A stretch of 23,805 nt of DNA from a virus (IMGVR_UViG_3300022748_000044:1-23805), one strand, 5' to 3'. Positions 4,485 to 23,805 are shown, counted from the first letter of the stretch. Numbers and translations are program-made. The notes: generated by a model from the letters alone, not told the origin.

Positions 4485-6389
4485 TCAGCTTGCTACAACT
4501 TGAGCGATTGAACCGTAATTGACCGTCACCACCAGATCCAGATTCGGCGTCGTGAACGTGTTGCCCACGGAATCCGTGATCGTGCATTTCCACGTGCTGC
4601 GGTAGGTGAATGGCAGCATATTCTTGGTGAATTGATCGCCGCCCGCATACTTGAAGCCCGGCGTGGCCGATGTCTTGTTCGCCGGCGTGATCACGCCCGT
4701 ATGGTGGGCGGTTTCCGTTACCACCGTCCAAAGATAACTGAATGGCGGATTGCTCGTGCCGCCGATGGCTACGGAAACCGAATTGAAGTTGGCTGGAACC
4801 GTTGTCGAATAATCATTGGTCGCCGTGCCGATCACCAGCGTTTCCGCAATCGTCAGATTGTAAGCCGTCAGCCCGATCTGCGTGGAACCTTGCACCGATG
4901 ACACCGTGAGGCCCGCCGCCGCCGGCGTCACCACCAAAGAGATCGGCGCATCATTGCTGCTCGTCGTCACTTTTGAGATGTAGATTGTGGCGCTCACCGC
5001 GTTGGCCGTGAAACCTGCCGTTCCACGGATGGCCGTGGCGATGTTGCTGGCCAGCGCGTTTAAGCCGTTCGTCGTGCCGCCGACCGGCCCGCCCATGATG
5101 TTGCTGCCCGTCGTGTAAACCACATTACCGCCCGTGTCCGCAACGCTCGCCTCAGTAAAGCTTGTGGACGTGTTGAAAGCGATCGTCGTCGCCGTGATGG
5201 CCGTGATGGTGAATGAACCGTTGTAACGGGTGTCGCCCATGCCGCTTACTGTCACCACTTCGCCCACCAGAAAACTATGCGTGCCGATGGTCAACGTCGC
5301 CACAAACAGCGCGTGCGCCCGCAACGTTGTCCGGCCCAAAATCGCGCTGCTCAAGATGCTCGTCATCCCCACCGTGGAATCCCCGCCGATGGTCAACGCA
5401 CAAGTTCCGATGCAAACCGTGCCGCTCGTCGTCACCTTGATCTCATAGCCGTTCGTTGATGTCCCGCCCGTCAACGGCAGGATGCTCACCAGCGGCCCCG
5501 TGGCCACGGCATAATAACCGTGCGTTCCCGCCGCGCTGCTGATGCTCACCGCCACCGCCGCCGCCGTCGTCGCTTCATCCGTCACATACAAGATCGCCGT
5601 GCTGTTCTTCAGCAGTTCCACGTTGTTGGCTTTCACCGATGTGATGGAATTGGTCGCCCCTACGCTGCCCGTGACGACTTGGAATTGCCCCGCCGCCTGC
5701 ACCGATGCCACGCTCGCCAGCCCGTTGTTCAACAGTTGCGCCGCCAGCGTGCCGTTCGTGGAACTCTTGTTGATGGCCGTCGTGTAGAGATTGCCCGGCA
5801 GGCTGAATACATCCAGCTTGCCCGTGCTGCCTTGCTGCGTCGCCGTGTAGCCGCTCGTTCGGTTTACCAGCGCCGTCAACGCCGTGGCGATCTTCCCGTC
5901 GTTCCCTGCCAGATAAGCGAGGATCAAGCCCGATGTGAAATCATTGATCAGCGAACCGTCGTAATAGCCGTAAGTGTTTTCGTCCGCGAACTTCGCCGCC
6001 ACCCACGCCTTGCCGCCGTAAACTTCGCTCGCTACCACCGCCGTCATCGCGTGCAGCGCGCCGTTGTAAGCCGTGCCCGCCAGCACCGCCGGATGCTGCA
6101 ACCGCTGATACGTCACGCCGCTCGGAAACGTCAACGCCGCGCCGTCCTGACTCCCGAAAACCACATGACTCGAAACCAGCGCCAGCCAGCCGAACGTGCC
6201 GCTCGGCAAACTCGTGGAAACCGCGCCGCTGCTGTTCGCCACCAGCGTGAACGCCTTCCGTTTCTCTAACTCCGCGCCCTGGTTGATATGCGCGTTGTTC
6301 GCAATCGTCAGCACGCCCGCCGGCTGCGACAACACAAACTTGCGCGCATCCAGCCCGCCGCGAAAATCTTTGATGGTGATGTCTGCCAT
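4485..6389 (-). CDS. Tail hub/stabilisation protein, N-terminal part, 634 aa
   Basis: The N-terminus (MADITIKDFRGGLDARKF, then a segment on N-terminal handling of EKRKAF and GVTYQRLQHP) is what I expect at the start of podoviral tail hub or stabilisation proteins. Residues about 130-520 are long stretches of Thr/Ser/Gly/Ala-rich beta sequence with repeated Ig-like or phage-tail beta units. Residues about 540-620 resemble a PKD/Ig-like domain (PPFSYLWTVV, TYRSTWKCTITDS). It ends at TGA 4485-4487, in frame with the downstream ORF. The start at 6389 is supported by the conserved opening residues; the leader is A-rich with no clear Shine-Dalgarno. CCGCTTT repeats lie just upstream. Confidence 0.75.
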   Translation of the reverse strand: MADITIKDFRGGLDARKFVLSQPAGVLTIANNAHINQGAELEKRKAFTLVANSSGAVSTSLPSGTFGWLALVSSHVVFGSQDGAALTFPSGVTYQRLQHPAVLAGTAYNGALHAMTAVVASEVYGGKAWVAAKFADENTYGYYDGSLINDFTSGLILAYLAGNDGKIATALTALVNRTSGYTATQQGSTGKLDVFSLPGNLYTTAINKSSTNGTLAAQLLNNGLASVASVQAAGQFQVVTGSVGATNSITSVKANNVELLKNSTAILYVTDEATTAAAVAVSISSAAGTHGYYAVATGPLVSILPLTGGTSTNGYEIKVTTSGTVCIGTCALTIGGDSTVGMTSILSSAILGRTTLRAHALFVATLTIGTHSFLVGEVVTVSGMGDTRYNGSFTITAITATTIAFNTSTSFTEASVADTGGNVVYTTGSNIMGGPVGGTTNGLNALASNIATAIRGTAGFTANAVSATIYISKVTTSSNDAPISLVVTPAAAGLTVSSVQGSTQIGLTAYNLTIAETLVIGTATNDYSTTVPANFNSVSVAIGGTSNPPFSYLWTVVTETAHHTGVITPANKTSATPGFKYAGGDQFTKNMLPFTYRSTWKCTITDSVGNTFTTPNLDLVVTVNYGSIAQVVAS

Positions 6390-10732: not shown

Positions 10733-10762
10733 AAATTTTTTGTTTTCTCTGCGCTCTCAAAG

Positions 10763-10795
10763 TTTCCGCTTTCCGCTTTTGCCCTTTCCGCTTTA
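10763..10795. repeat. CCGCTTT heptamer repeats
   Basis: Units of CCGCTTT occur at 10767-10780 and again at 10789-10795, running into the stop codon of the 238-aa gene. On the coding strand they are AAAGCGG. A degenerate TCTCTGCGCTCTC repeat of a second family adjoins at 10745-10758. Confidence 0.75.
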
Positions 10796-11515: not shown

Positions 11516-12061
11516 TTAACGGCGGCGGCGCGCGGTCGGCGCAGGCTGTTCACCTTCCCCGCTCGGAGTTTCTTCCGATGGCGTTTCCGGCGCGGCCTCT
11601 GCGTTTCCGCTTTCCGTGTTTCCGCTTTCCGCTTTTGGGGTTAAATCCGTGATTTCAGGATTCCCGATGAACTCCGCCACTTCAGCAAACGTCTGCGGCA
11701 ACGGTCGCGTGCGGTCGGGCAAAATCACTTTCACCGCTGACTTGCCTTCGATCTGGCCCGTGTAAAATTTTTCCAATAGGGCGCGTTCCTCGGCATCCGT
11801 CCGCTTGCGCGTTTGCGCCGGACGGCCCGGATTGGCCGGACGCACCAGAATGTGATCCACTGTGTATTCCGCCGGACTGGCTGGAACGGCGGGTGAGATT
11901 TCCGTCTGCGCTTCGCCGACGATCTGGATGTCGGAAAGCGGATTGCCCTTGGCTTCCTTGAAATGCAGCGCGTGCAGGATCAAAGCGTCTGCCGGCGTCA
12001 GGTCGTAGAGTTGAACCTTGTTTTCGGGTGTGATGGTGAGTTTGGCGTGTGCGATTTGCAT
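11516..12061 (-). CDS. Hypothetical protein downstream of capsid genes, 181 aa
   Basis: I chose the ATG at 12059-12061, because the frame upstream runs through a strong hairpin and the end of the preceding gene with unlikely protein sequence. The product starts MQIAHAKLTITPENKVQLYD; the first 130 residues are an ordinary mixed fold with a helix (DAEERALLEKFYTG). The last 45 residues are low in complexity and Glu/Pro/Ser-rich, ending in Arg-Arg-Arg. Part of this tail (KAESGNTESGNAE) is translated directly from CCGCTTT-type repeats. No family is recognised. Its place between the capsid-neighbour gene and the adaptor fits a head-completion or minor capsid role. Confidence 0.7.
   Translation of the reverse strand: MQIAHAKLTITPENKVQLYDLTPADALILHALHFKEAKGNPLSDIQIVGEAQTEISPAVPASPAEYTVDHILVRPANPGRPAQTRKRTDAEERALLEKFYTGQIEGKSAVKVILPDRTRPLPQTFAEVAEFIGNPEITDLTPKAESGNTESGNAEAAPETPSEETPSGEGEQPAPTARRRR
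11603..11635. repeat. CCGCTTT repeats inside a coding region
   Basis: Three full CCGCTTT or near copies (one CCGTGTT variant) sit inside the 3' part of the 181-aa gene and are translated as KAESGNTESGN. Since the unit is 7 bp, three copies are needed to keep the frame, and the block here is compatible with that. Confidence 0.75.
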
Positions 12062-12904: not shown

Positions 12905-13969
12905 TCACGCCAACACCCATTTCGCAGAACTGTCCGGCTGGTTCTGGCTCAACGCCCCGCGATCCGTCACGCTCTTGAGCATGATGAATTGATCCGCCGG
13001 TTGGTTCTGGTTGGTGATCTTGTTCCACTCCTTTTTCTGCGGACGCAGACGGAGATGGTTGGAATCCCACGCATAGCAGGATTTGGCTTCGCCCAGGTCG
13101 TCCAGCGTCGGATCATAAACGATCTCCACGCTGCCAAACTTGACGCCGGAAACTTCCACGTTCGTTTTCTTGTCCGCCCAGCCCGTCATCGTGATCGTGC
13201 CCTTGGCGCGACATTCGCGGTTCACGGCGTCCACAAAGTCCGCGCCGGCCAGCATCACGTCGGGATTACCGCCGAAGCGTTTCAACTGGATCATGTCTTT
13301 CAACAGGGTTTCCGTTAGCGTCTGGTCGGCCTTGGAATAACCCACGGTCGGCAACGCGCCGCCCACACCGGTGCGGGCGATGTGCCGCCACCACGTATTC
13401 GTCGCGCGGTCAATGCCGCCCAACGTGCCCGTGGTCGGGTCGTCGGTGATGATGCTCTTGATGCCGGGGATGGCTTTCGCATCTTGCGAGCCGTCCAGCC
13501 ACAGCGTGAGATTCGCGTTGATGGCGCGGCTCTCGCTGAAGTCGAACAGACGAGTTTTCAGCAAGTCCAGCAACACCGAGGATTCGTCCTTGGTCGCCGT
13601 CACATTGTTGCCGTTGTCCTCCACGTGGATGCCCTGCGCAAGCAGTTCGTCCAGCGTTATCTTGAAACCCGCGTGCATCCAGCGGATCGGGAATTGCGTC
13701 TGGATCGCGCCGCTGGATGCGGTGAACGTCAGAACGTCGTCGCCGCTGATACCCTGATAAGAACCGGGCTGATCCTTCATCATGGCCCCCTGCACGCCTT
13801 CGCGCACATAGGTCAAGCCGCTGCCGTATTCCTTCTTGGTGGAATACAACTTTTGGAGCAGCGGACGGTTTTGGAGATGGCGAAAAATATCTTCCGGTTT
13901 GTCCGGCATGATATATTTGTTCAACTGGATGGCCGCGAGATCGCTGGCCTGGGCTACGGTAAAGGGCAT
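12905..13969 (-). CDS. Major capsid protein, 354 aa
   Basis: The product has the size and layout of HK97-fold major capsid proteins. Its early segment contains YSTKKEYGSGLTYVREGVQG, the middle has a helical region (SSVLLDLLKTRLFDFSESRA) like a spine helix, and late strands include DVMLAGADFVDAVNRECRAK and VKFGSVEIVYDPTLDDL, typical of P-domain and A-domain ends. The NTWWRHIARTG segment is also common in phage coat proteins. It follows the scaffold-like gene by 12 nt and is followed by a strong hairpin, as expected for the most heavily expressed virion gene. The leader is A-rich with no Shine-Dalgarno. I am sure of the role, less of the subfamily. Confidence 0.85.
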   Translation of the reverse strand: MPFTVAQASDLAAIQLNKYIMPDKPEDIFRHLQNRPLLQKLYSTKKEYGSGLTYVREGVQGAMMKDQPGSYQGISGDDVLTFTASSGAIQTQFPIRWMHAGFKITLDELLAQGIHVEDNGNNVTATKDESSVLLDLLKTRLFDFSESRAINANLTLWLDGSQDAKAIPGIKSIITDDPTTGTLGGIDRATNTWWRHIARTGVGGALPTVGYSKADQTLTETLLKDMIQLKRFGGNPDVMLAGADFVDAVNRECRAKGTITMTGWADKKTNVEVSGVKFGSVEIVYDPTLDDLGEAKSCYAWDSNHLRLRPQKKEWNKITNQNQPADQFIMLKSVTDRGALSQNQPDSSAKWVLA

Positions 13970-15191: not shown

Positions 15192-15240
15192 TGTTTCCGC
15201 CTTTTGGTTTCCGCTTTCCGCTTTTCACATTTCCGCTTTA
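15192..15240. repeat. CCGCTTT repeats overlapping the portal gene end
   Basis: CCGCTTT units at about 15211-15224 and 15233-15239 (and a CCGCCTT variant at 15197) fill the gap between scaffold and portal genes. They overlap the portal stop codon at 15225-15227; the last portal residues (GKAEM) come from a repeat unit. Confidence 0.75.
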
Positions 15241-17576
15241 CCCGGCCCCGTCCCCGTCTTGGTCAAATTGGGGATGTGCGAACCCGGAACCGGCGCGCCC
15301 GCTGCCGGCGGTTGCGGCTGATGTTCCTGCGGTGCTGCCGGCTGAAAACCAAACGTCTGCTCGATCTGCGCCTGCACGCTCGGCGGCGCGTCCTTGAAGT
15401 TCATCGAAAGACTCAAGCTCGGCTTCGGCCCCATCGCTGCGGGATCAACCGGCGGCGCTTGCAACTGCGCGGGTTTCAAAAAGTCGTCCACGTCCAGCTT
15501 GTCGCCCAGGCGGCGCACGCCTTCCTTGATCAACGGTTCCAAGTCGCGGCCTGATTTCGCCATGTAATCACCCAACTGCGGCCCGATGACTTTGAAGTTG
15601 TTCAGTTCCGCCATCTGGTTCGGACGGCCCATGCTGCCCGCCGCGATCTTCACAAAGATAGCTTCCTGCAATTCCTGCCGGCGGATGCTCGGCCACACAG
15701 CGCCGCGCCCCACCAGTTTTTTCACCGTGTCCTCGCGCATCTCTTGGATCAACATTTCAAACGTCATTTGCGCCAGCGTGGTGAACAACATATCCAGATC
15801 TTCGATGTTGCTTTCGTCGTTCGTCGCCCGGCCCATCGCGGCGATCTGTTGTCCCGTGGCTTTTTCGTCGGGACGTTGCTGGCCCAAATCGCTCGCCTGC
15901 ATCCCCGTGGAAAGCATCATCGCCTGCAAACTGGCGGATGTGGAATAAAGTTCCGGCGTGATCGGCTTGGTCGGCAACGGCTGGATGAAATCGGCGATGC
16001 CTTCACCGGGATTGATGTTTTCAATCATCAAAACCTGATGCGCCGGACGCGGACGCGCCAGCTTCATCAAATCGTTCTCGCCGCTTGCGCCGGCAAAGCG
16101 CGACTTGATCCCGATCCACGATGGACGATTCGCAACGCGATGCTCGCGCAACCCTTCGCCCGCCGTGTTGATGTCTTTCTGCATCGGCATGGCCAGCCGC
16201 ACATCGCTGCGCGGATAGATGGTCACATCCTCGTCGGGATAGTTCACTTCCATTTCCTGCGCGTTGAACGTCACGCTGACGATGCTCCAGAAACGGTTCA
16301 CCTTCGGATCGTTCGATTCCGGTTCTTTCAGGAAATCTTTTACGCCGTCACAAACCACGTAGTTCATGCCGTCCGTCTTGTCCTCGATGTTCCAGATGCA
16401 GACTTTGCCCGTGCGTGGTTTTGTTCCTTCATCGGTGCGGCTTTCCTCCTTCGTCTCCGTCGCGCGGTCGTAGCCGTTCGTTCCGTCCTCCCGATAGATT
16501 GCCGCGCCGGTGTCCCGCAAACTCACGCCAAACTTGGCTTCCGCTTCGGCGATGTCCAAAAGCATCTCGTGCGCGATCCACCGCGCGCCCACGAAATCCC
16601 GCAGACACGTGCAAGCGCGATCCACGATCACCGCTGTCGGCTGAAGGAAATCGTAAACCACGCCTTCGTCCTTCACCTGGTTCTCGTTGTCCGCCTGCTC
16701 ACGCTCGATCTGTTTGGCCATCAACTGCGCCTGCGCCGCCGCCGCGCTGTCGCCGCTCGTGGCCGCGTCCTGAAGCTCGCGCAACTTTTGCTGCAACGCT
16801 TGCAGCCGTTCAGCAAACCCGAAATCATTCACGCTGGCCGTCGCCGTCGTCTCCATCTCGCGCTTGAACATCACCTTAACAAAACCCACGCGGCTGGTGA
16901 CGATGCGCGTCACCAGTTGCTTGCCGCTGGATAGCAACGGCGGTGATTGATTTTTGAACGTCAATTCTACCAGCCTCGTCGCCGTGTTCGCCACGCGCTG
17001 AAGCATCTGTTTTTCCGTCATGCCTTGCTCGTAATCCTGCAAGATGGCTTGCGCCTTTTTGACATCCTCCGCCATCTGCGGCGGCGGCGGGGCCACCTCT
17101 TGCCCAGCGGCGGCGGCTTCGTGCGCCTGCATGGCGATGGGCGCGATGCCTTCCACCAGCTTCTTTGCTGCGTCCAGCGTTTCCTGCCGGCCATCCCACA
17201 CTTCAAAATTCATCCGTTCCGCGATTGCCGCCTCGGGCTGCGGGTTCTTGGCGTAAAGCGTCGCCGTCTTGCGATTGATCATCTGTTGCATCACGTCGAG
17301 CACGCACAAATCTTTTTCATCTGTTTGACTCTTGGCGATGCTCGGCCATTGTTTGCCGGCGGCAAACTTCTGTTCCTCACGGATGCGGTCAAACGTCGGC
17401 TTCCAAAACTTACGTTCCGCCCGCACGCGCTCCTGCAACTCTTGCACCAGCGCCGCCCGGCTGCTATCACGCGGCGCAGACGCCAGCGGATTGGGCAACT
17501 TGCCGGTCGTCACCACCGCGCCCGCCGCCTTGATCCGGTCAAAAAATCCCATCGGTTGCTCTGTAATGGTTTCCAT
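15225..17576 (-). CDS. Portal protein, 783 aa
   Basis: This is the largest gene of the window. Length, position between terminase and scaffold, and sequence pattern fit a podoviral (P22-type) portal, the dodecamer at one capsid vertex through which DNA is pumped. N-terminal features include WKPTFDRIREEQKFAAGKQW and MINRKTATLYAKNPQPEAAI, typical for portal N-termini. A Gln/Ala-rich coiled coil lies at about 275-315. The middle has DFLQPTAVIVDRACTCLRDF and GARWIAHE; near 540-600 GMQASDLGQQRPDEKATGQQ and the following AMGRATNDES form the usual clip/stem region. The last 70 residues are Pro/Gln/Gly-rich. The leader has AGGA about 7 nt before ATG, one of the few Shine-Dalgarno-like sites here. Confidence 0.88.
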   Translation of the reverse strand: METITEQPMGFFDRIKAAGAVVTTGKLPNPLASAPRDSSRAALVQELQERVRAERKFWKPTFDRIREEQKFAAGKQWPSIAKSQTDEKDLCVLDVMQQMINRKTATLYAKNPQPEAAIAERMNFEVWDGRQETLDAAKKLVEGIAPIAMQAHEAAAAGQEVAPPPPQMAEDVKKAQAILQDYEQGMTEKQMLQRVANTATRLVELTFKNQSPPLLSSGKQLVTRIVTSRVGFVKVMFKREMETTATASVNDFGFAERLQALQQKLRELQDAATSGDSAAAAQAQLMAKQIEREQADNENQVKDEGVVYDFLQPTAVIVDRACTCLRDFVGARWIAHEMLLDIAEAEAKFGVSLRDTGAAIYREDGTNGYDRATETKEESRTDEGTKPRTGKVCIWNIEDKTDGMNYVVCDGVKDFLKEPESNDPKVNRFWSIVSVTFNAQEMEVNYPDEDVTIYPRSDVRLAMPMQKDINTAGEGLREHRVANRPSWIGIKSRFAGASGENDLMKLARPRPAHQVLMIENINPGEGIADFIQPLPTKPITPELYSTSASLQAMMLSTGMQASDLGQQRPDEKATGQQIAAMGRATNDESNIEDLDMLFTTLAQMTFEMLIQEMREDTVKKLVGRGAVWPSIRRQELQEAIFVKIAAGSMGRPNQMAELNNFKVIGPQLGDYMAKSGRDLEPLIKEGVRRLGDKLDVDDFLKPAQLQAPPVDPAAMGPKPSLSLSMNFKDAPPSVQAQIEQTFGFQPAAPQEHQPQPPAAGAPVPGSHIPNLTKTGTGPGKAEM

Positions 17577-17619: not shown

Positions 17620-17742
17620 TCACGGTTGGTAAACCAGATAGGCGAACGCCTTGCGCCCCTTCACCGTTAGCGCCCGAAATTCCCGCCGCCACCCTTCCGG
17701 CGTCGTCGGGTTCTGCAATTCGGTTTTTGTATCTGTGTCCAT
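17620..17742 (-). CDS. Small hypothetical protein between terminase and portal, 40 aa
   Basis: An ATG at 17740-17742 opens a 40-codon frame that fills the 213-nt gap between large terminase and portal. The product is MDTDTKTELQNPTTPEGWRR followed by a basic helix and the C-terminus AYLVYQP. The sequence is compatible with a small soluble protein with a basic centre. It begins 47 nt after the terminase stop. There is no family match by eye, and at this length it may be non-coding, but the gap otherwise has no content except repeats. Confidence 0.4.
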   Translation of the reverse strand: MDTDTKTELQNPTTPEGWRREFRALTVKGRKAFAYLVYQP

Positions 17743-17756
17743 CTGTCGCTCAAATT

Positions 17757-17791
17757 GTTTCCGCTTTCCGCTTTTTTCGTTTCCGTTTTTT
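17757..17791. repeat. CCGCTTT repeats overlapping the terminase gene end
   Basis: Two CCGCTTT units (17761-17774) and degenerate copies (TTCCGTT) precede and include the stop codon region of the large terminase gene (TAA at 17790-17792). Confidence 0.7.
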
Positions 17792-19385
17792 AGCTTCGCC
17801 CCGCCGTGAACGCCTTTTCATCGCTCACACCCTGCCCCCAGCTATGCCACGCCATCGTGCCCGGCTTCGGCAGATCGCTGATCATCTTGCGTTCCGCCGG
17901 CGTCAACGTGTCCAGCCCCATGCCCAGCAACGCCAACGCCGCCACAAAATCGTCGTGCTTGCCGCTCGGGAAATGCAAAAGCTCCTGTTCCGCTTCGCCC
18001 CACTTCGGCCAATGCTTCGGAAACCGCACCATGCCGCTCGCCATGCTGTTGCGGATGCTGATCACGCGATGCTCTTGTAAGTCCTTTGTCTCGGCAGTTT
18101 CTTTGATGTATTGGAACACCCGCTTTTCCTGCATCCGCTGCCGCAGAAACGGCCCGATGCTCCCCGCAATCTGATCCTTCGCCGCGAACCAGATGGCCGG
18201 ACGTTTCCGCGCCATCAGATCAATCATCTTGTCGGTCATCACCAGCGTGTCGCTGCGATCCCATTCCGTTTCCGGCAACACCCAAATCGTCCCGCTCGCA
18301 TCAATGCCCACCACCAGCAAGCAATGCCGGTCGTTCTGCTGCGCGCCGCGCACCGCGTGATCGCTCGCCACGTAAATCCGCAACGCCTTCGGCAACTCGT
18401 CCGCCGTGTAAGTTTTCAGCCATTCCTTTTTGAAGAACTTGCCTTCTGTCGGCGTCGGATTGCATTGCGCCTGCACCTGAAAATCTTCCCGCACCAGTTC
18501 GCTCTGGTTTTCCCGCTGCGCCAGCCAGAACTCTTTTGAAAATCGTTCCGGCCACAACGGTTCATCAATCGCGCGGCACAAAACATCGCCCGCTTCCGCC
18601 AACGCCGGCAGACGTATCACTTCCCATTTCTCGCGTTCCTTGGGATCGAAATGCAGATTGTCCTTGTCCAGAATCCGGCCCTGCGGATCGTCCTCGTGCT
18701 TGCGCGTGCCGATCATGCAGATGCCGCCCGTTTCCTCGTTCAACCGGCTGGAACAATCCGAGACATAGCAATGCCACGCATTATCCCGCGTTGCCGCGCT
18801 GCGCGCTTCTTCGGCGTTCTTGAAAAAATCATCAATCAAAATCCAGTCCGCGCCGAAACCGCCGCCCATGCCGTCGCGGCCCGTGAACATCCACACGCCG
18901 CCCGCCACCGTCTGCAACCGATCCATCGCCCGGCTATCCGTCCGCAGTTGCGCCAGCGGACTCGGGAACGCCGTGCGGTAACCGCCGCTGTCAAACACAT
19001 CGCGGCAATCCCGGCCCAAATCACTCGCCAGCTTGTCCGTGTGCGTGATGACGATGCCGCTGCGATGCGGCCAGTTGCCGGCCAGCCACGGAACCAGCTT
19101 GCGCACGCTCAACTCGCTTTTCCCGTGGCGATACGGGATCGAGATCATCAGATTCTTTTTCTGTCCTTCGCGCCGCGCAAATTGCATCAGCTTGCCGCCG
19201 ATGTATTGGTGATGCCGCGCCACCTTGTAACGGCTCTTGCTCACGTCCAACGGTTCGCTCGGCAACGGACTGGTGAGTTGCGCGAACGCGATCAGATCCC
19301 GCTGGGCAAGTTTTCCGTAAGCCAGCCGCGCCTGTAACAGTTGCGGGGTGATCAGCGTCATGGCGATGAGTAAAAGAAATTTCAT
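17790..19385 (-). CDS. terL: Terminase large subunit (packaging ATPase/nuclease), 531 aa
   Basis: The motor that cuts and packages phage DNA. The P-loop is PYRHGKSEL at residues 84-92, a common form in large terminases. Walker B is WILIDD (181-186), followed by FFKNAEEARSAATRDN. The GICMIGTRKHEDDPQGRI segment (221-238) is the coupling motif region. The nuclease domain has an RNase H-like strand with acidic residues (VASDHAVRG, 339-347) and ends with HDDFVAALALLGMGL (477-491). All key residues are present. I start at the ATG 19383-19385, which overlaps the small-subunit stop (ATGA); a frame extending 79 codons upstream gives Arg/Gly-rich shadow sequence of the small subunit. An internal Met at residue 9 is a possible alternative start. 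Confidence 0.93.
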   Translation of the reverse strand: MKFLLLIAMTLITPQLLQARLAYGKLAQRDLIAFAQLTSPLPSEPLDVSKSRYKVARHHQYIGGKLMQFARREGQKKNLMISIPYRHGKSELSVRKLVPWLAGNWPHRSGIVITHTDKLASDLGRDCRDVFDSGGYRTAFPSPLAQLRTDSRAMDRLQTVAGGVWMFTGRDGMGGGFGADWILIDDFFKNAEEARSAATRDNAWHCYVSDCSSRLNEETGGICMIGTRKHEDDPQGRILDKDNLHFDPKEREKWEVIRLPALAEAGDVLCRAIDEPLWPERFSKEFWLAQRENQSELVREDFQVQAQCNPTPTEGKFFKKEWLKTYTADELPKALRIYVASDHAVRGAQQNDRHCLLVVGIDASGTIWVLPETEWDRSDTLVMTDKMIDLMARKRPAIWFAAKDQIAGSIGPFLRQRMQEKRVFQYIKETAETKDLQEHRVISIRNSMASGMVRFPKHWPKWGEAEQELLHFPSGKHDDFVAALALLGMGLDTLTPAERKMISDLPKPGTMAWHSWGQGVSDEKAFTAGRS

Positions 19386-20065
19386 GCCGTTTTCGTCGTC
19401 GCTGCCGGATGTTGGTTTCCGCTGCCGTTTCCGCTTTCCGCTTTCCGCTTTTCTCCCGCCGTCGCCGTCTTGGTCGTCGCCGTTACCGGCGTCACCCCGA
19501 GGCGCTTCAGTTCCGCCAAAATCTCCGCTTCCCCCCATTGCTCCACCGGCTTGCTCGTGTCCACGGCGATGTCGTTGTTCACCGTCACGTTCACGCCGTT
19601 CTCGTCCGGGTTGTTCTTCCACTCGTCCGCGCAGGAATTTCGCAGCGCAAAGATCACCGCCCGAGCATCCGGCCCCGCCACTTCCAGCCGCTTTTCCCAG
19701 TAAAACGTGCGCGCCGCCCGGGCTTTCGTTAAGGCGTCAGAAAATTCCTTGTGCGTTTCCGTCCAGGCATAGATCGTTTCCCGCGAAACGCCGATGTGCC
19801 CAGCGAACGCCGTCAGCGAAAAACCCTTCGCCATGAAGTTGATGATGTCCGCGCAGTATTTTGAAAGATAAACCGAAGGCCGACCGCTTGACTTGTTTCC
19901 GATTTCCGATTTCCGATTTCCGATTTTGATTTGCTCCGGCTGGCACTTTTTGACGTTCGCCTGAATCCGTTGCCGCGCCGTCAGCTTCTTTTTTTTGGGT
20001 GAAGCCTCTGCCGGTCTTTCCGCTTTCCGCTTTCCGCTTTCCGCTTTTGGGTTTTCCTGTGCCAC
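19382..20065 (-). CDS. terS: Terminase small subunit (DNA-recognition), 227 aa
   Basis: The start codon is GTG (20063-20065). Residues 1-60 are basic and low in complexity, and partly made of translated short repeats (PKAESGKRKAE and IGNRKSEIGNK). Residues about 62-102 hold a DNA-binding segment: GRPSVYLSKYCADIINFMAK, then a helix-turn-helix at 81-101 (GFSLTAFAGHIGVSRETIYA), typical of small terminases. Residues 103-150 form helices (EFSDALTKARAARTFYWEKR), as in the family. The C-terminal tail is Thr/Ala-rich with another KRKAESGNGSG repeat. It is translationally coupled to the large subunit. A promoter-like pair lies just upstream. Confidence 0.8.
   Translation of the reverse strand: MAQENPKAESGKRKAERPAEASPKKKKLTARQRIQANVKKCQPEQIKIGNRKSEIGNKSSGRPSVYLSKYCADIINFMAKGFSLTAFAGHIGVSRETIYAWTETHKEFSDALTKARAARTFYWEKRLEVAGPDARAVIFALRNSCADEWKNNPDENGVNVTVNNDIAVDTSKPVEQWGEAEILAELKRLGVTPVTATTKTATAGEKRKAESGNGSGNQHPAATTKTA
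19415..19453. repeat. CCGCTTT repeats inside the small terminase gene (3' part)
   Basis: Three CCGCTTT units (about 19431-19451) and two variants lie in the 3' part of the small-terminase gene and are translated as EKRKAESGNGSGN. Confidence 0.75.
19895..19927. repeat. TTCCGAT heptamer repeats inside the small terminase gene
   Basis: Four TTCCGAT units in tandem (19897-19924) lie inside the small-terminase gene and are translated as KIGNRKSEIGNK. The unit differs from CCGCTTT but has the same 7-bp period. Confidence 0.8.
20016..20049. repeat. CCGCTTT heptamer repeats at the small terminase 5' end
   Basis: Four CCGCTTT units in tandem (20020-20047) lie near the 5' end of the small-terminase gene and are translated as PKAESGKRKAER. 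Confidence 0.85.
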
Positions 20066-20492: not shown

Positions 20493-20521
20493 ATGCGTTC
20501 TCTGCGTTCTCTGCGGTTAAA
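20493..20521. repeat. TCTCTGCGT repeats between genes
   Basis: Two units of GCGTTCTCT plus a final TGCGGTTAAAT fill the gap after the putative replication gene's stop. An almost identical block occurs at 21424-21450, and degenerate copies at 8009-8025 and 10745-10758. The unit reads AACGCAGAGA on the coding strand. Confidence 0.75.
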
Positions 20522-21394
20522 TCAATCCGCGAACTGCTTCCAAAGAAATTCCGTGTGCGCCCCCGTGCTGCGCACCGTCCGATTCCCCATGTCCTCCACG
20601 CACGCCGCGAACACGCGATGAACTTTCGCCCGGTTCGCCCGCCAGCGCAGCCGCCACTTGCCGCCGTCGTTCTCCATAACCGCGTCCCCGAGCACCTGCC
20701 GACATCCCAGCATCGCCTGACGCTCATCCTTGCCTTCGATGGCATACAACGCCCCTTTCAAAGTCTCAAAGCTAAAAGCCTTTGAATCCTTTGACTCTTT
20801 AACCTTTAAGTTAGAACCCGCGCCAGTTCCTATTTTGGGAACTGCGGGATTTATTGGCTTTTCCGGTGGTTTTCCGGTAGCACACCGCAAGGTGTTCCCA
20901 TTTTGGGAACTCGGCAGACTTTGGACTTTGGACTTTGGACTTTGGACTAGCTCCGCGCTCACTTCCGCCAGCGCCCGCTTCAGACTCGGCGCTGGTTCCA
21001 CCAGTTCGCCCTGCGCCTGTCCCGGCGCTTGATTCACCATCGCCATGAACGCCAGCATTTCATCCTGCTTATAGAACCAGTCCACCGCCCACATGGCGCT
21101 GTCTGGATAGATCAGGATTTCCCAGCCGTCCGCGATTTCCTCCACATGAAGAATCCGCGCACTCACCAACGCCGCCACCACTTCCGCCACATGATTTTTC
21201 CCGATCTTCAACAATTCACATAGCCGCGTCCGATTCGGGATCACCACGCGCGTCCGACCTTGCCCCAGCGTCGCCTTGATGCAGAACTCCGCCAGCCGCC
21301 GCGCCCGGCCCGTGATGTCCGCGCGATCCAAGTCCGCCCGCATCCGCGCCGCCACCTTCCGAAAATCCGTGTCTGCTGTGATAACCGTTGTCAT
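20522..21394 (-). CDS. Putative replication initiator / winged-helix protein, 290 aa
   Basis: The N-terminal 100 residues form a winged-helix-like domain (TRVVIPNRTRLCELLKIGKN, then HVAEVVAALVSARILHVEEI). This is close in layout to the N-termini of phage replication initiators, such as O-like proteins, and to plasmid Rep proteins. Residues about 125-215 are low-complexity linker, partly encoded by GGACTTT repeats (SPKSKVQS) and by palindromic repeats. Residues about 225-290 form a second compact domain (ALYAIEGKDERQAMLGCRQV, then RWRANRAKVHRVFAA). The linker part of the gene contains an origin-like cluster, as in lambda O. It follows the SWIM gene with TAAAATG spacing. The initiator role is an inference. 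Confidence 0.55.
   Translation of the reverse strand: MTTVITADTDFRKVAARMRADLDRADITGRARRLAEFCIKATLGQGRTRVVIPNRTRLCELLKIGKNHVAEVVAALVSARILHVEEIADGWEILIYPDSAMWAVDWFYKQDEMLAFMAMVNQAPGQAQGELVEPAPSLKRALAEVSAELVQSPKSKVQSLPSSQNGNTLRCATGKPPEKPINPAVPKIGTGAGSNLKVKESKDSKAFSFETLKGALYAIEGKDERQAMLGCRQVLGDAVMENDGGKWRLRWRANRAKVHRVFAACVEDMGNRTVRSTGAHTEFLWKQFAD
20759..20949. other. Candidate replication origin inside the rep-like gene
   Basis: Within the linker-coding part lie, in order: an AT-rich tract (20759-20819); an 18-bp palindromic element GTTCCTATTTTGGGAACT (20826-20843); an 11-bp tandem repeat TTTTCCGGTGG/TTTTCCGGTAG (20859-20880); a second copy of the 18-bp element, GTTCCCATTTTGGGAACT (20894-20911), 68 bp from the first; and GGACTTT heptamers (20917-20949). 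AT-rich DNA next to repeated palindromes inside an initiator gene is the layout of the lambda O origin. Direct evidence of replication is absent. Confidence 0.4.
20917..20949. repeat. GGACTTT heptamer repeats inside the rep-like gene
   Basis: Four tandem copies of TTGGACT (20921-20948), preceded by GACT, lie in the linker-coding region and are translated as SPKSKVQS. This is a separate family of the 7-bp class. Confidence 0.8.
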
Positions 21395-21395
21395 T

Positions 21396-21662
21396 TTATT
21401 CTACCGCCGGTGCAACCGGCATTGTGTTCTCTGCGTTCTCTGCGGTTAAATTTTCCGCTTTCCGCTTTTCGATTTCCGCTTTCACCAGCCTCACGTGCCG
21501 ACATTCCAAGCCGTTGATCTCATACCGTGGACACCCGCAACCCCACCCGCGCCGTCGCCTATCCTCATCCCAATAATCCTGGTCAACGATATAAGCCTCA
21601 TCCGCCCGCGACCCGCTCCAAACCCGCCACCGCGTCGGCTCGCCCGGTATTGGCTCGATCAC
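21396..21662 (-). CDS. SWIM zinc-finger protein, 88 aa
   Basis: Start codon GTG (21660-21662) overlaps the integrase stop as GTGA. The core is a SWIM-type zinc finger, CxCx9CxH: Cys42, Cys44, Cys54 and His56 in CGCPRYEINGLECRH. SWIM fingers bind DNA or proteins and occur in transposase- and recombination-linked proteins. The preceding residues (RWRVWSGSRADEAYIVD) are typical of short SWIM proteins. The C-terminal 25 residues (EIEKRKAENLTAENAEN and following) are translated from CCGCTTT and TCTCTGCGT repeats. The coupling to the integrase suggests co-expression, perhaps in control of recombination or replication. Confidence 0.7.
   Translation of the reverse strand: MIEPIPGEPTRWRVWSGSRADEAYIVDQDYWDEDRRRRGWGCGCPRYEINGLECRHVRLVKAEIEKRKAENLTAENAENTMPVAPAVE
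21424..21483. repeat. Mixed TCTCTGCGT and CCGCTTT repeats at the SWIM gene end
   Basis: A TCTCTGCG/TTCTCTGCGGTTAAAT block (21424-21450) is followed directly by two to three CCGCTTT units (about 21455-21483). The SWIM protein's C-terminal tail is encoded by them. The first block is nearly identical to the one at 20493-20521. Confidence 0.8.
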
Positions 21663-22651
21663 AAACTATCAATCGGCAGCTTCACCCGCCGTTCCGCCGG
21701 ACTCATCACATGATTGTAAATCTGCGTTGTCTCAATCCGTGAATGTCCCAGCAACTTCTGCAAATCGTAAATGTTCCCACCGTCCTCCAAAAAATGCGTG
21801 GCGAAACTGTGCCGAAACGTGTGCGTGCTGGCTTTTTTGGTGATGCCCACAATACGGATGGCCCGCCCCACCGCCCGCTGCACCGTTTCCTCGAAAATGT
21901 GGTAACGCTTGAAAACGCCGTCACGGTCATCCCGCACCAGATCACGAGCCGACATCACATACTGCCAACCCCACGAACGCGCCGCGCCCGGATTCTTCAC
22001 GCCATAAGCGTTTGGCAACGCCACCGTCCAACCGCCATCCTGGTCAAACATCAATTTCAATCGCGCCAAGTGTTCCTGCAACGGTTGCACCAACACCGCC
22101 GGCAATGGCACGGGCCGATGTTTCCCACCCTTGCCATCAATCACCGTCACCACCCTGCGATCAAAATCAATATCCTTGACCATCAACCGCACCACTTCGC
22201 CCACGCGCAAACCGCAACCGTATTGCAACAACGCGCACAGCCGCGTCATTCCCGCCATCGCCGCCAACACCTTGCGCACTTCATCACGGGAAAACACCAC
22301 CGGCAAATGTGACGGCTTACTGGCGGCGGCAAACTTGCCGATGTCGCCCAGCGGTTTCTCTAAAAACTTGTCGTAAAACAAAACCAGCGCGCACAGGTTC
22401 TGATTCTGGGTTTTCCAAGTCACATCCCGCTTGTTCGCCAGCATGGAAAGAAAACGGTTCACATCATCCTTGGACAACTCGCGCGGATCACGCTTGCCGC
22501 AGAACAGCACAAAATCCAAAACATTGCTGACATACGCGGAAATCGTCGCCGGACGATAATTTTTCATCCGCATCCAGTCAGCAAACTCCTCCCGCAACCG
22601 GCGCTTCATTGCGGCTTTCTGCGGTGAAAATGCTGTTACGGCAACATTCAT
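21659..22651 (-). CDS. intI: Integron integrase (IntI-type tyrosine recombinase), 330 aa
   Basis: A full tyrosine recombinase: N-terminal SAM-like core-binding domain (about 15-100) and catalytic domain with Arg149 (GCGLRVGEV), Lys174 (DGKGGKHRP), His277 and Arg280 (HTFRH), His303 (LLGHS) and nucleophile Tyr312 (QIYNHV). The region about 213-265 has the extra integron-integrase segment (GAARSWGWQYV, then RYHIFEETVQRAV) that in IntI contacts extrahelical bases of folded attC and is absent from ordinary phage integrases. The start at 22651 is the longest frame; the ATG at residue 15 (22607-22609) is an alternative that would leave a normal-size attI. The cassette array lies divergently upstream, as in integrons, and the stop overlaps the next gene (GTGA). 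Confidence 0.92.
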   Translation of the reverse strand: MNVAVTAFSPQKAAMKRRLREEFADWMRMKNYRPATISAYVSNVLDFVLFCGKRDPRELSKDDVNRFLSMLANKRDVTWKTQNQNLCALVLFYDKFLEKPLGDIGKFAAASKPSHLPVVFSRDEVRKVLAAMAGMTRLCALLQYGCGLRVGEVVRLMVKDIDFDRRVVTVIDGKGGKHRPVPLPAVLVQPLQEHLARLKLMFDQDGGWTVALPNAYGVKNPGAARSWGWQYVMSARDLVRDDRDGVFKRYHIFEETVQRAVGRAIRIVGITKKASTHTFRHSFATHFLEDGGNIYDLQKLLGHSRIETTQIYNHVMSPAERRVKLPIDSL

Positions 22652-22676
22652 GTTGTGGAATAACTGTTACACAGCC
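22610..22676 (+). other. attI-type recombination site and cassette 1 junction
   Basis: The crossover G/TT lies at 22666/22667 in AATAACTGTTACACAGCC, where AAC and GTT form a simple inverted site. A direct repeat of CTGTTAC occurs at 22633-22639 and 22664-22670, reminiscent of integrase-binding repeats in attI. The site overlaps the beginning of the integrase frame if the long start is used. The 12 bases 22665-22676 are the reverse complement of 23129-23140 in the first attC, which marks this as the left cassette boundary. Confidence 0.7.
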
Positions 22677-22684
22677 TGATTTCA

Positions 22685-22702
22685 TTGGCGATTTCGCGCC
22701 AA
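22685..22702. repeat. Inverted repeat in the cassette 1 leader
   Basis: TTGGCG and CGCCAA are separated by 6 nt (ATTTCG) between the integrase start and the first cassette gene. An operator for the divergent integrase/cassette pair or a small hairpin are possible. Confidence 0.4.
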
Positions 22703-22729
22703 AAAATAGTTGAAGATTTATGCTGCAAA

Positions 22730-22746
22730 ACCCAAGCGGCTTGGGT
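22730..22746. repeat. Second inverted repeat in the cassette 1 leader
   Basis: ACCCAAG and CTTGGGT are separated by CGG, a perfect 7-bp palindrome. On the minus strand it is followed by TTTT, so a weak terminator on that strand or an operator are both possible. A TATATT box (22746-22751) directly abuts it on the plus strand, so a repressor site controlling the cassette genes would fit. Confidence 0.4.
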
Positions 22747-22797
22747 ATATTCTAACCATCGAAGGCGATTAAGCCTCCGAAAAACAAAAAGAAAAAT

Positions 22798-22992
22798 ATG
22801 AAGACCACCAAATATGTAGCCCTCGATTGTAACGGTTCGGCGCTCCAGTTCACCGGATCTGGCCGCTCGGTGCAGTGCGCTGATGAGTCCGCCGACCTGT
22901 TCGATACACAGGCCGAAGCCGAAGCCGCCCTGAAGTTGGCTGAAGAACGCGGCGGGCAGGTTGTCCCGCAGCACGACCCCACCGACCGATGA
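22798..22992 (+). CDS. Cassette-borne hypothetical protein, 64 aa
   Basis: The first gene of cassette 1, on the plus strand as is usual for cassettes. The product starts MKTTKYVALDCNGSALQFTG, has a beta-rich first half with a small Cys-containing turn (RSVQCADESADLF) and an Ala/Glu helix (AEAEAALKLAEERGG), and ends in Asp-Arg. I know no family, but short proteins with a FDTQAEAEAA-type helix are common in cassettes. The leader is A-rich (AAAAACAAAAAGAAAAATATG) with no clear Shine-Dalgarno. Its stop overlaps the start of the next gene (ATGA). Confidence 0.75.
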   Translation: MKTTKYVALDCNGSALQFTGSGRSVQCADESADLFDTQAEAEAALKLAEERGGQVVPQHDPTDR

Positions 22993-23138
22993 ACGCCGAA
23001 GCATCCAGATACCTCGCCGCCATTGGGCGGCGAGGAGGCGAGGCCAAATCAGCCGCGAAAGCGGCAGCGGCAAAAGAGAATGGGAAGCGCGGCGGTAGGC
23101 CGAAGAAAAAGAAGCACATTGACGTTCGGGCTGTGTAA
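22989..23138 (+). CDS. Cassette-borne small basic protein, 49 aa
   Basis: The ATG at 22989-22991 overlaps the preceding stop. The product is MNAEASRYLAAIGRRGGEAK, then an Ala/Lys run and GKRGGRPKKKKHIDVRAV. The IGRRGGEAK and NGKRGGRPKK motifs occur in many short bacterial and phage proteins with KGG-like repeats, presumably nucleic-acid binding. The stop lies inside the R'' end of the first attC (TAA at 23136-23138 in GTGTAAC), a usual arrangement in compact cassettes. Two small overlapping genes in one cassette recall toxin-antitoxin pairs, but neither product is a recognised toxin. Confidence 0.7.
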   Translation: MNAEASRYLAAIGRRGGEAKSAAKAAAAKENGKRGGRPKKKKHIDVRAV

Positions 23139-23241
23139 CAATGCGCTGATGCAGACCACCGGCGGGCGTCTCCCGTGAATCGGTAACGTCTCTTGCGCTC
23201 GTGAGTTGGTCGGTCGGTGGCTGCATAGCTATTCGTTCGGA
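23129..23241 (+). other. attC1: cassette 1 recombination site
   Basis: R'' GTGTAAC (23133-23139) is followed by spacer AATGC (23140-23144) and L'' beginning GCTGATGCAGACCACCG (23145-23161). The other arm is CGGTGGCTGCATAGC (23215-23229), spacer TATTC (23230-23234) and GTT (23235-23237). The arms pair as GCT-ATGCAG-CCACCG with two extrahelical bases (a G and an A, 7 nt apart) on the R'' arm and a 5-nt unpaired spacer on each side; a variable loop of about 53 nt lies between. These are the defining features of attC. Confidence 0.87.
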
Positions 23242-23609
23242 AGCCCGGCGGCATCGTAGGTTTCCAGCGCGGCATTTGCGGCCTCGGCATATTCGAGCGC
23301 ACCTTCCGCCCATTCCATCGTTTGCAGCGCCCACACATTTCCGTCAGTGTCGGTTTTCTTGCGGTCAGTTCGGACGCTGGCGAGATAGCCAGCAGCTTTT
23401 ATGAGCGTGTCCGCGAGCATTTTGTTTTCGCGTTCAAGCTTGCGGCACAGATACAGAGCGCGGTCACGGTCGGTTTCTTTTTCCTTCGTGTATTCCGGCG
23501 TCAGCTTCATCTGCATGAGCAGATTATTTGTGCGTGGAGTCGGGACTTCCGAACCATGCGCCGCAGGCGAATCGGCGGTGGCCTTGTCAGTTCGATTGTC
23601 GTTTGGCAT
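23229..23609 (-). CDS. Phage-type hypothetical protein in cassette 2 (reverse orientation), 126 aa
   Basis: The product starts MPNDNRTDKATADSPAAHGS and contains VPTPRTNNLLMQ, a PTPRT-type opening common in small phage early proteins, followed by a helical, coiled-coil-prone segment (RDRALYLCRKLERENKMLAD) and an Ala-rich acidic C-terminus (LEYAEAANAALETYDAAG). It fills cassette 2 in the reverse orientation: it starts in the central loop of the second attC and ends in the 3' arm of the first. Reverse genes in cassettes are known but uncommon. It may have been carried in as a phage-derived gene. Biochemical function unknown. Confidence 0.7.
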   Translation of the reverse strand: MPNDNRTDKATADSPAAHGSEVPTPRTNNLLMQMKLTPEYTKEKETDRDRALYLCRKLERENKMLADTLIKAAGYLASVRTDRKKTDTDGNVWALQTMEWAEGALEYAEAANAALETYDAAGLPNE

Positions 23610-23654
23610 AGAGATTATTTTTGGGCGTTCGCGCCGATTCGCTGAGCTTGGTCG
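23236..23654 (+). mobile_element. Integron gene cassette 2
   Basis: A 419-bp cassette bounded by G/TT at 23235/23236 and 23654/23655. Its first bases TTCGGAAG, preceded by G, are the reverse complement of CTTCCGAAC (23546-23554) at the R'' side of its own attC: nine bases, perfect. It has no plausible plus-strand gene; a reverse 126-aa gene uses almost all of it, including parts of both flanking attC sites. Confidence 0.8.
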
Positions 23655-23660
23655 TTCAGC
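23546..23660 (+). other. attC2: cassette 2 recombination site
   Basis: R'' CCGAAC (end at 23554), spacer CATGC (23555-23559), then L'' arm GCCGCAGGCGAATCGGC (23560-23576). The other arm is GCCGATTCGCTGAGC (23633-23647), spacer TTGGTC and GTT (23654-23656). Nine consecutive bases CGAATCGGC/GCCGATTCG pair, then CAG/CTG, with extrahelical G bases at 23563 and at 23566 or 23567, one mismatch, and GC/GC at the base. A loop of about 56 nt lies between. The plan equals attC1. Confidence 0.78.
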
Positions 23661-23805
23661 ATCAGAGTTTCGGGCGGAAGATCACGATTGCGACCGGGAA
23701 TGGCGCAGCCGCTTCCGCTCCGGCAAAAGTCACGCGGCCTTTGGGATAGCGCACTTCACCTTTCACCGCGTAGTTGTGCCACCAGTTCGTGTCCACGCGG
23801 GCAGG
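23655..23805 (+). mobile_element. Start of integron gene cassette 3 (partial)
   Basis: The stretch after the second attC crossover begins TTCAGCATCAG and contains the reverse-oriented end of a Dam-type methyltransferase gene. The far end and its attC lie beyond the window, so whether this is a further cassette or the start of ordinary phage sequence cannot be decided here. Confidence 0.5.
23662..23805 (-). CDS. Phage-type DNA N6-adenine methyltransferase (Dam family), C-terminal 47 aa only
   Basis: An open frame enters from the right edge and ends at TGA 23662-23664, giving the last 47 residues. These contain WWHNYAVKGEVRYPKGRVTF and the ending APFPVAIVIFRPKL. In phage Dam proteins (DNA N-6-adenine-methyltransferase, PF05869 type) the C-terminus has this combination: aromatic residues, an EIRF/KGR strand, an F-G-G-A segment and an APFPS-IVIF strand followed by RP. 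The catalytic motif is outside the window. The gene is on the minus strand, 10 nt inside what may be cassette 3, so it would be read opposite to the array. Dam proteins protect phage DNA from host restriction. Confidence 0.78.
   Translation of the reverse strand, partial: PARVDTNWWHNYAVKGEVRYPKGRVTFAGAEAAAPFPVAIVIFRPKL

Follow-up and report, generated by a model that had tools for sequence, protein, structure and literature searches.

Integrons of bacteria and of phages

Integrons are gene-capture machines known mainly from bacteria. Their occurrence in phages has been described by Qi et al. (2023), who reported integrons, attC sites/CALINs and methyltransferase cassettes in phages, suggested an anti-restriction role and assayed attC sites of phages with IntI1 (PMC9892861). 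The complete cases (Vibrio, E. coli P1, Shewanella) were described there as pieces of class 1 or chromosomal integrons or belong to a cryptic prophage, while intI is missing from those of virulent phages (PMC9892861). The arrays considered here are alike in that IntI, attC sites and cassettes are found in phage genomes, with DNA methyltransferases among the cassettes, but differ in that intI is placed in the phage operon and in phage-rich lineages, that the cassettes are mostly reversed and that exchange is seen between close relatives.

With sedentary chromosomal integrons the phage arrays share IntI, an attI site by the intI start, the canonical attC strand and complementarity of the attC site to the start of its own cassette, whereas bacterial cassette genes lead away from intI (57 forward, 4 reverse) and those of phage arrays mostly toward it. 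In the atypical integrons of the Treponema type (PMC3607928), as in the phage arrays, intI and the cassette genes share one direction; the Treponema intI, however, reads toward attI, whereas that of the phage arrays reads away from it in the usual manner and the cassette genes are turned instead.

Virus Rctr41k (KX853513; our locus L011), a published phage genome absent from Table 1 of PMC9892861, also encodes a canonical IntI at positions 4680-5678 (383 bits), which its annotation names an integrase-like protein. There, too, intI is situated upstream of a same-strand terminase, but the strict finder detected no attC within 4 kb.

A preliminary description of the DNA analysed here knew of no established class of integrons carried by tailed phages. 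This stands only in part, as integrons and attC clusters in phages had already been published in 2023 (PMC9892861), whereas the lineages and the reversal described below are unreported in the literature searched. In that literature, with preprints and subscription papers outside its scope, no subsequent description of phage integrons as a class was found, nor any of IntI lineages rich in phages, of cassette reversal or of cassette turnover between related phages. Clustered phage IntI lineages, often beside a terminase, in combination with reversed cassettes appear to be new.

Layout of the window

The window, by which the whole stretch of DNA analysed is meant, is the entire IMG/VR record IMGVR_UViG_3300022748_000044 of 23,805 bases of environmental DNA, and in the collection searched the same virus is present solely as this fragment. 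No terminal repeats were found over the whole 23,805 bases, the contig being a fragment of a genome that is not closed; it stops at position 23805, 1.15 kb past intI, with the far side of the array and any lysogeny genes outside. In one continuous stretch of this contig, an intact intI, an attI-type crossover, cassettes and attC sites, as recognized from sequence, are shown to be joined to predicted phage replication and packaging genes, with the tailed-phage (Caudoviricetes-type) hallmarks TerL, portal and head protein all present (Table 1). The order given in the preliminary description, namely IntI, a G/TT boundary, two genes, an attC site, a second cassette, a second attC site and the beginning of a third, holds at these coordinates, and its SWIM, replication-like and terminase genes downstream on the same strand are recovered as profile matches, in part below cut-off.

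Table 1. Predicted features of the 23,805-base window, in order of position.
Feature	Position	Strand	Remarks
Seven short repeats	10740-10794, 11604-11635, 15208-15247, 17732-17789, 20017-20047, 20494-20522, 21422-21482		
Major head protein	12905..13969	-	phrog_9953, 119 bits
Portal protein	15225..17576	-	phrog_1216, E 5e-4
TerL	17790..19622	-	phrog_38, 254 bits; listed ORF overlaps TerS, true start probably later
TerS-like, helix-turn-helix	19382..20065	-	Sf6_terminase, E 9e-5, below cut-off
Phage replication protein O-like (Rep-O-like)	20522..21394	-	PF04492, E 1e-5, just below cut-off
SWIM zinc-finger protein	21396..21662	-	PF04434, E 0.0025, just below Pfam gathering cut-off
intI, integron integrase, 330 aa	21659..22651	-	TIGR02249 (NCBIfam), 317 bits, cut-off 265
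Putative attI-type site	22640..22672	+	crossover G22666/TT22667; placed by position and own-start match
Cassette 1	22667..23235	+	from G/TT at 22666 to G of R' at 23235
Cassette 1 ORF a, 64 aa	22798..22992	+	forward, canonical orientation (away from intI)
Cassette 1 ORF b, 49 aa	22989..23138	+	overlaps ORF a as ATGA; stop within R''
attC1	23133..23241	+	covariance model 13.3 bits, E 0.16, rank 2; structural finder 8.5
Cassette 2	23236..23654	+	own start pairs with R'' over 9 nt
Cassette 2 ORF, 126 aa	23229..23609	-	reversed, same strand as intI; later start possible near 23519
attC2, degenerate stem	23548..23660	+	covariance model 16.8 bits, E 0.023, rank 1
Start of cassette 3	23655..23805	+	after R' of attC2; cut by contig end

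In the alignment, the residues of the window IntI read as catalytic (R149, K174, H277, R280, H303 and Y312) are all present, and the IntI-specific insertion, already proposed in the preliminary description, aligns with the IntI family. The crossover G is located 14 nt upstream of the intI ATG, and an ACTG/TT motif beside intI is common to the window and its two nearest relatives, L017 and L018, which have the crossover in the corresponding position.

As an Rfam match to attC was absent from the window, a structural finder was written and a covariance model built from bacterial sites. The model, trained solely on 36 bacterial attC sites and searched against both strands of the 23.8 kb, did not reject the two sites proposed beforehand but placed them at the top, although their E-values are modest alone and the next chance match in the window reaches 12.4 bits. 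In an array, each R'' box is expected to complement the start of its own cassette, and this complementarity is, as far as sequence can tell, a stronger test of the sites than the covariance E-values. For attC1, the match of the extended R'' spans 11 nt at 22666, with 5 nt as the next best among the 524 GTTs of the window; for attC2, it spans 9 nt at 23235, which is the R' of attC1, with 7 nt as the next best among the same 524.

The layout of attC1 is canonical, with R'' GTGTAAC, a 5-nt spacer, L'' GCTGATGC, L' GCATAGC carrying one extrahelical base, a 5-nt spacer and R' GTTCGGA, and its bottom-strand fold has a z of -2.4. For attC2 in its in-array form, the plain minimum-energy fold is not better than in shuffles, and the in-array R'/R'' pairs are imperfect. 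A finder match on the opposite strand (22827-22941, score 8.7) was set aside as chance because it lacks an own-start partner.

Matches were found neither for ORF a of cassette 1 in family profile scans nor for its ORF b in a Pfam scan, and the ORF of cassette 2 had no family in profile scans, no phage tblastn match and no relative on viral contigs. Among the phage genes, the portal protein is 34-35% identical to ORFs following TerL in two TerL relatives. A host look-up with TerL against 388 Verrucomicrobiota genomes gave only matches of about 30%. The seven short interspersed repeats are situated near gene ends and are built from pieces like CTCTGCGTTCTCTGCGGTTAAAT and TTCCGCTTTCCGCTTT.

Related integrases, cassette orientation and turnover

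While a scan with the window IntI as a single protein gave no matches in viral or genome contigs, an alignment query did find relatives. The nearest IntIs found, both on viral contigs with attC arrays, are 71% (L017/G001) and 53% (L018/G002) identical to the window IntI, compared with 47% for the best bacterial IntI found, and the window IntI forms with L017 and L018 a clade of three members (SH-aLRT 100). The closest relative, G001, has genes for a head protein and for a tyrosine integrase separate from IntI, besides a weak match to a terminase, and G002 encodes DnaB and a head protein; the attC sites of both lie upstream of intI in canonical strand orientation, and their own-start matches fall at an ACTG/TT that resembles attI. 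In the IntI tree, which was built from the best 80 matches from each collection and midpoint rooted, viral IntIs cluster, with 13 label changes versus about 48 in shuffles, a clustering to which near-copies contribute.

Across 81 viral IntI loci, the structural finder identified 74 attC-like sites in canonical strand orientation upstream of intI, compared with 1 on the other strand, 2 and 8 on the downstream side and 6 in shuffled sequence, and own-start complementarity extends on average 4.5 nt beyond GTT versus 1.3 in control pairs (p 1e-8). Terminase matches are present on 34 of the 69 IntI-bearing virus records, as the union of several scans in which the families run varied by record. IntI and TerL are adjacent in 14 of 19 cases in the phage-rich part of the tree versus 2 of 18 elsewhere (Fisher p 2e-4), which is suggestive only, since adjacency was counted by hand from contig coordinates and the split of the tree was picked after viewing it. 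Two genomes with IntI and attC sites, G017 (51,880 bp) and G044 (39,440 bp), possess 127-bp terminal repeats as expected of closed assemblies. Besides TerL, TerS, portal, head protein and endolysin, G017 encodes a separate serine integrase; G044 encodes DnaB, a primosomal protein, a tail chaperone and a virion protein, with a terminase match that is sub-threshold only.

When orientation is called by the longest ORF per cassette, 32 cassettes of phage arrays are reversed, i.e. co-directional with intI, and 5 are forward, a ratio opposite to that of the bacterial arrays (Fisher p 3e-16, with cassettes that are not independent). Three loci, L037, L058 and L025, were removed once a first count had been made, as they have IntIs that group among those of bacteria or a contig derived from an isolate genome; the viral count including them is 34 reverse and 17 forward. 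On 21 contigs marked with a phage hallmark gene, or grouped with one having it, 24 cassettes are reversed and 5 forward. Pfam recognized 12 families among 80 reversed cassette ORFs versus 1 among 82 forward ORFs, which supports the reversed strand as the predicted coding strand; among the families are N6/N4 and C5 DNA methylases, Dam, Mom, PAPS reductase and HNH, and genes of DNA modification recur. Of the window cassettes, the second is reversed and the first, with two forward ORFs, runs against the phage trend, so that reversal is to be read as a trend of the relatives and not as a property shown in the window.

IntI matches at E 1e-60 or better occur in 70 of the 388 sampled Verrucomicrobiota genomes, and several of the 70 contain more than one. 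As no attC was found at Verrucomicrobiota IntI loci with 1.5 kb flanks, 20 longer stretches were taken as the orientation control. One of these genomes (L288, G341 C7 30000-49999) contains an array of mixed orientation with two reversed calls, which could be a prophage integron.

Direct comparison of related phages shows where cassettes differ. G045 and G047 have 26,277 bases in common at 100% and 7,036 at 99.4%, and G044 shares the array flanks at 98.7-100%, with parts of its backbone away from the array at 84-93%. Read in array orientation, the three agree up to the attI crossover (...ATAATTCTTGTT), then diverge over the first cassette and coincide once more from R' boxes like CGTTCTGC and CGTTCGCC, the breakpoints of these attI-proximal differences being located at G/TT. 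Such a pattern is what integrase-mediated cassette exchange would leave. The two contig ends of G045 hold overlapping but different versions of the array, as would be expected if its sample contained a mixed population. The IntIs of these phages are placed elsewhere in the tree than the window IntI, and turnover was observed solely in these relatives.

Further attC-like sites form a second cluster in G044 (31635-32631) and G045 (32227-33588), on the plus strand, opposite to the main array, and this region also differs between the two.

Phage residence, its alternatives and its consequences

We consider the integron to be phage-resident and part of a tailed-phage genome with a probability of roughly 85%. 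The preliminary description had proposed an integron beside or inside a phage genome; a location inside is supported by the first and second rank of the two attC sites in the covariance model and by the translational coupling of intI to the next phage gene. The check it had set, rejection of both sites by the covariance model or host genes with prophage ends separating IntI from the replication gene, thereby did not turn out against this reading.

Among the alternatives, the one that survives best, although improbable, takes IntI as the phage's own lysogeny integrase, which inserts at a host attI or attC, with the cassettes as host sequence from the attachment site. No second integrase is visible in the 23.8 kb (ORF list and limited family scans), and a Vibrio anguillarum prophage flanked by attC sites has been described (PMC9892861); on the other hand, the serine integrase of G017 and the tyrosine integrase of G001 each exist beside an IntI-attC array, cassette genes run mostly in the non-bacterial direction and relatives turn over whole cassettes. 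Integration of the phage into host attC sites through IntI, an idea put forward beforehand, is not favoured for the reason that these two relatives each possess another integrase in addition to IntI.

Somewhat less probable again is a host chromosomal integron joined to a neighbouring prophage, or a misassembly. The record is an incomplete metagenomic contig, IntIs occur in Verrucomicrobiota genomes, as counted above, and phages with captured chromosomal integrons are known (PMC9892861). Yet the intI stop overlaps the GTG start of the SWIM gene as GTGA, and coupling of the same kind is found in G001, where intI overlaps a different phage gene, and in G044 with its next gene. Base composition is alike across the junction between integron and phage (54.6 to 59.8% GC), the identity to the best bacterial IntI falls below that to both IntIs on phage contigs, and the closed relatives exhibit the same layout. 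That the integron is an inert relic, its intI and attC sites persisting without recombining, as the degenerate attC2 and the imperfect in-array R'/R'' pairs might indicate, is very unlikely in view of a full-length intI with conserved catalytic residues, R''/own-start pairing that is still exact and cassette turnover in related phages.

For a phage-resident integron, the window IntI, which we infer to be active, would recombine folded bottom-strand attC hairpins with attI, whereby the phage may gain, lose and reorder accessory genes. Cassette genes running toward intI would be transcribed with the phage operon from phage promoters and not from the integron Pc promoter, a scheme that fits cassette 2 of the window but not cassette 1. 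Many related cassettes would serve DNA modification, probably helping to evade restriction, and we infer a benefit of the integron to the phage. Evenly balanced, in our judgement, is the wider proposal that tailed phages keep integron lineages of their own, apart from the bacterial ones, in which the cassettes are turned into the reading direction of the phage operon and pass between phages as a variable stock of DNA-modification (anti-restriction) genes.

Phage integrons have so far been reported as occasional captures. If there is a phage-maintained form, with its own integrases, a recurrent place by the terminase and its own cassette orientation, integrons would be a standing source of viral variation, whose use against restriction can be tested and through which cassettes could travel between phages and bacteria.
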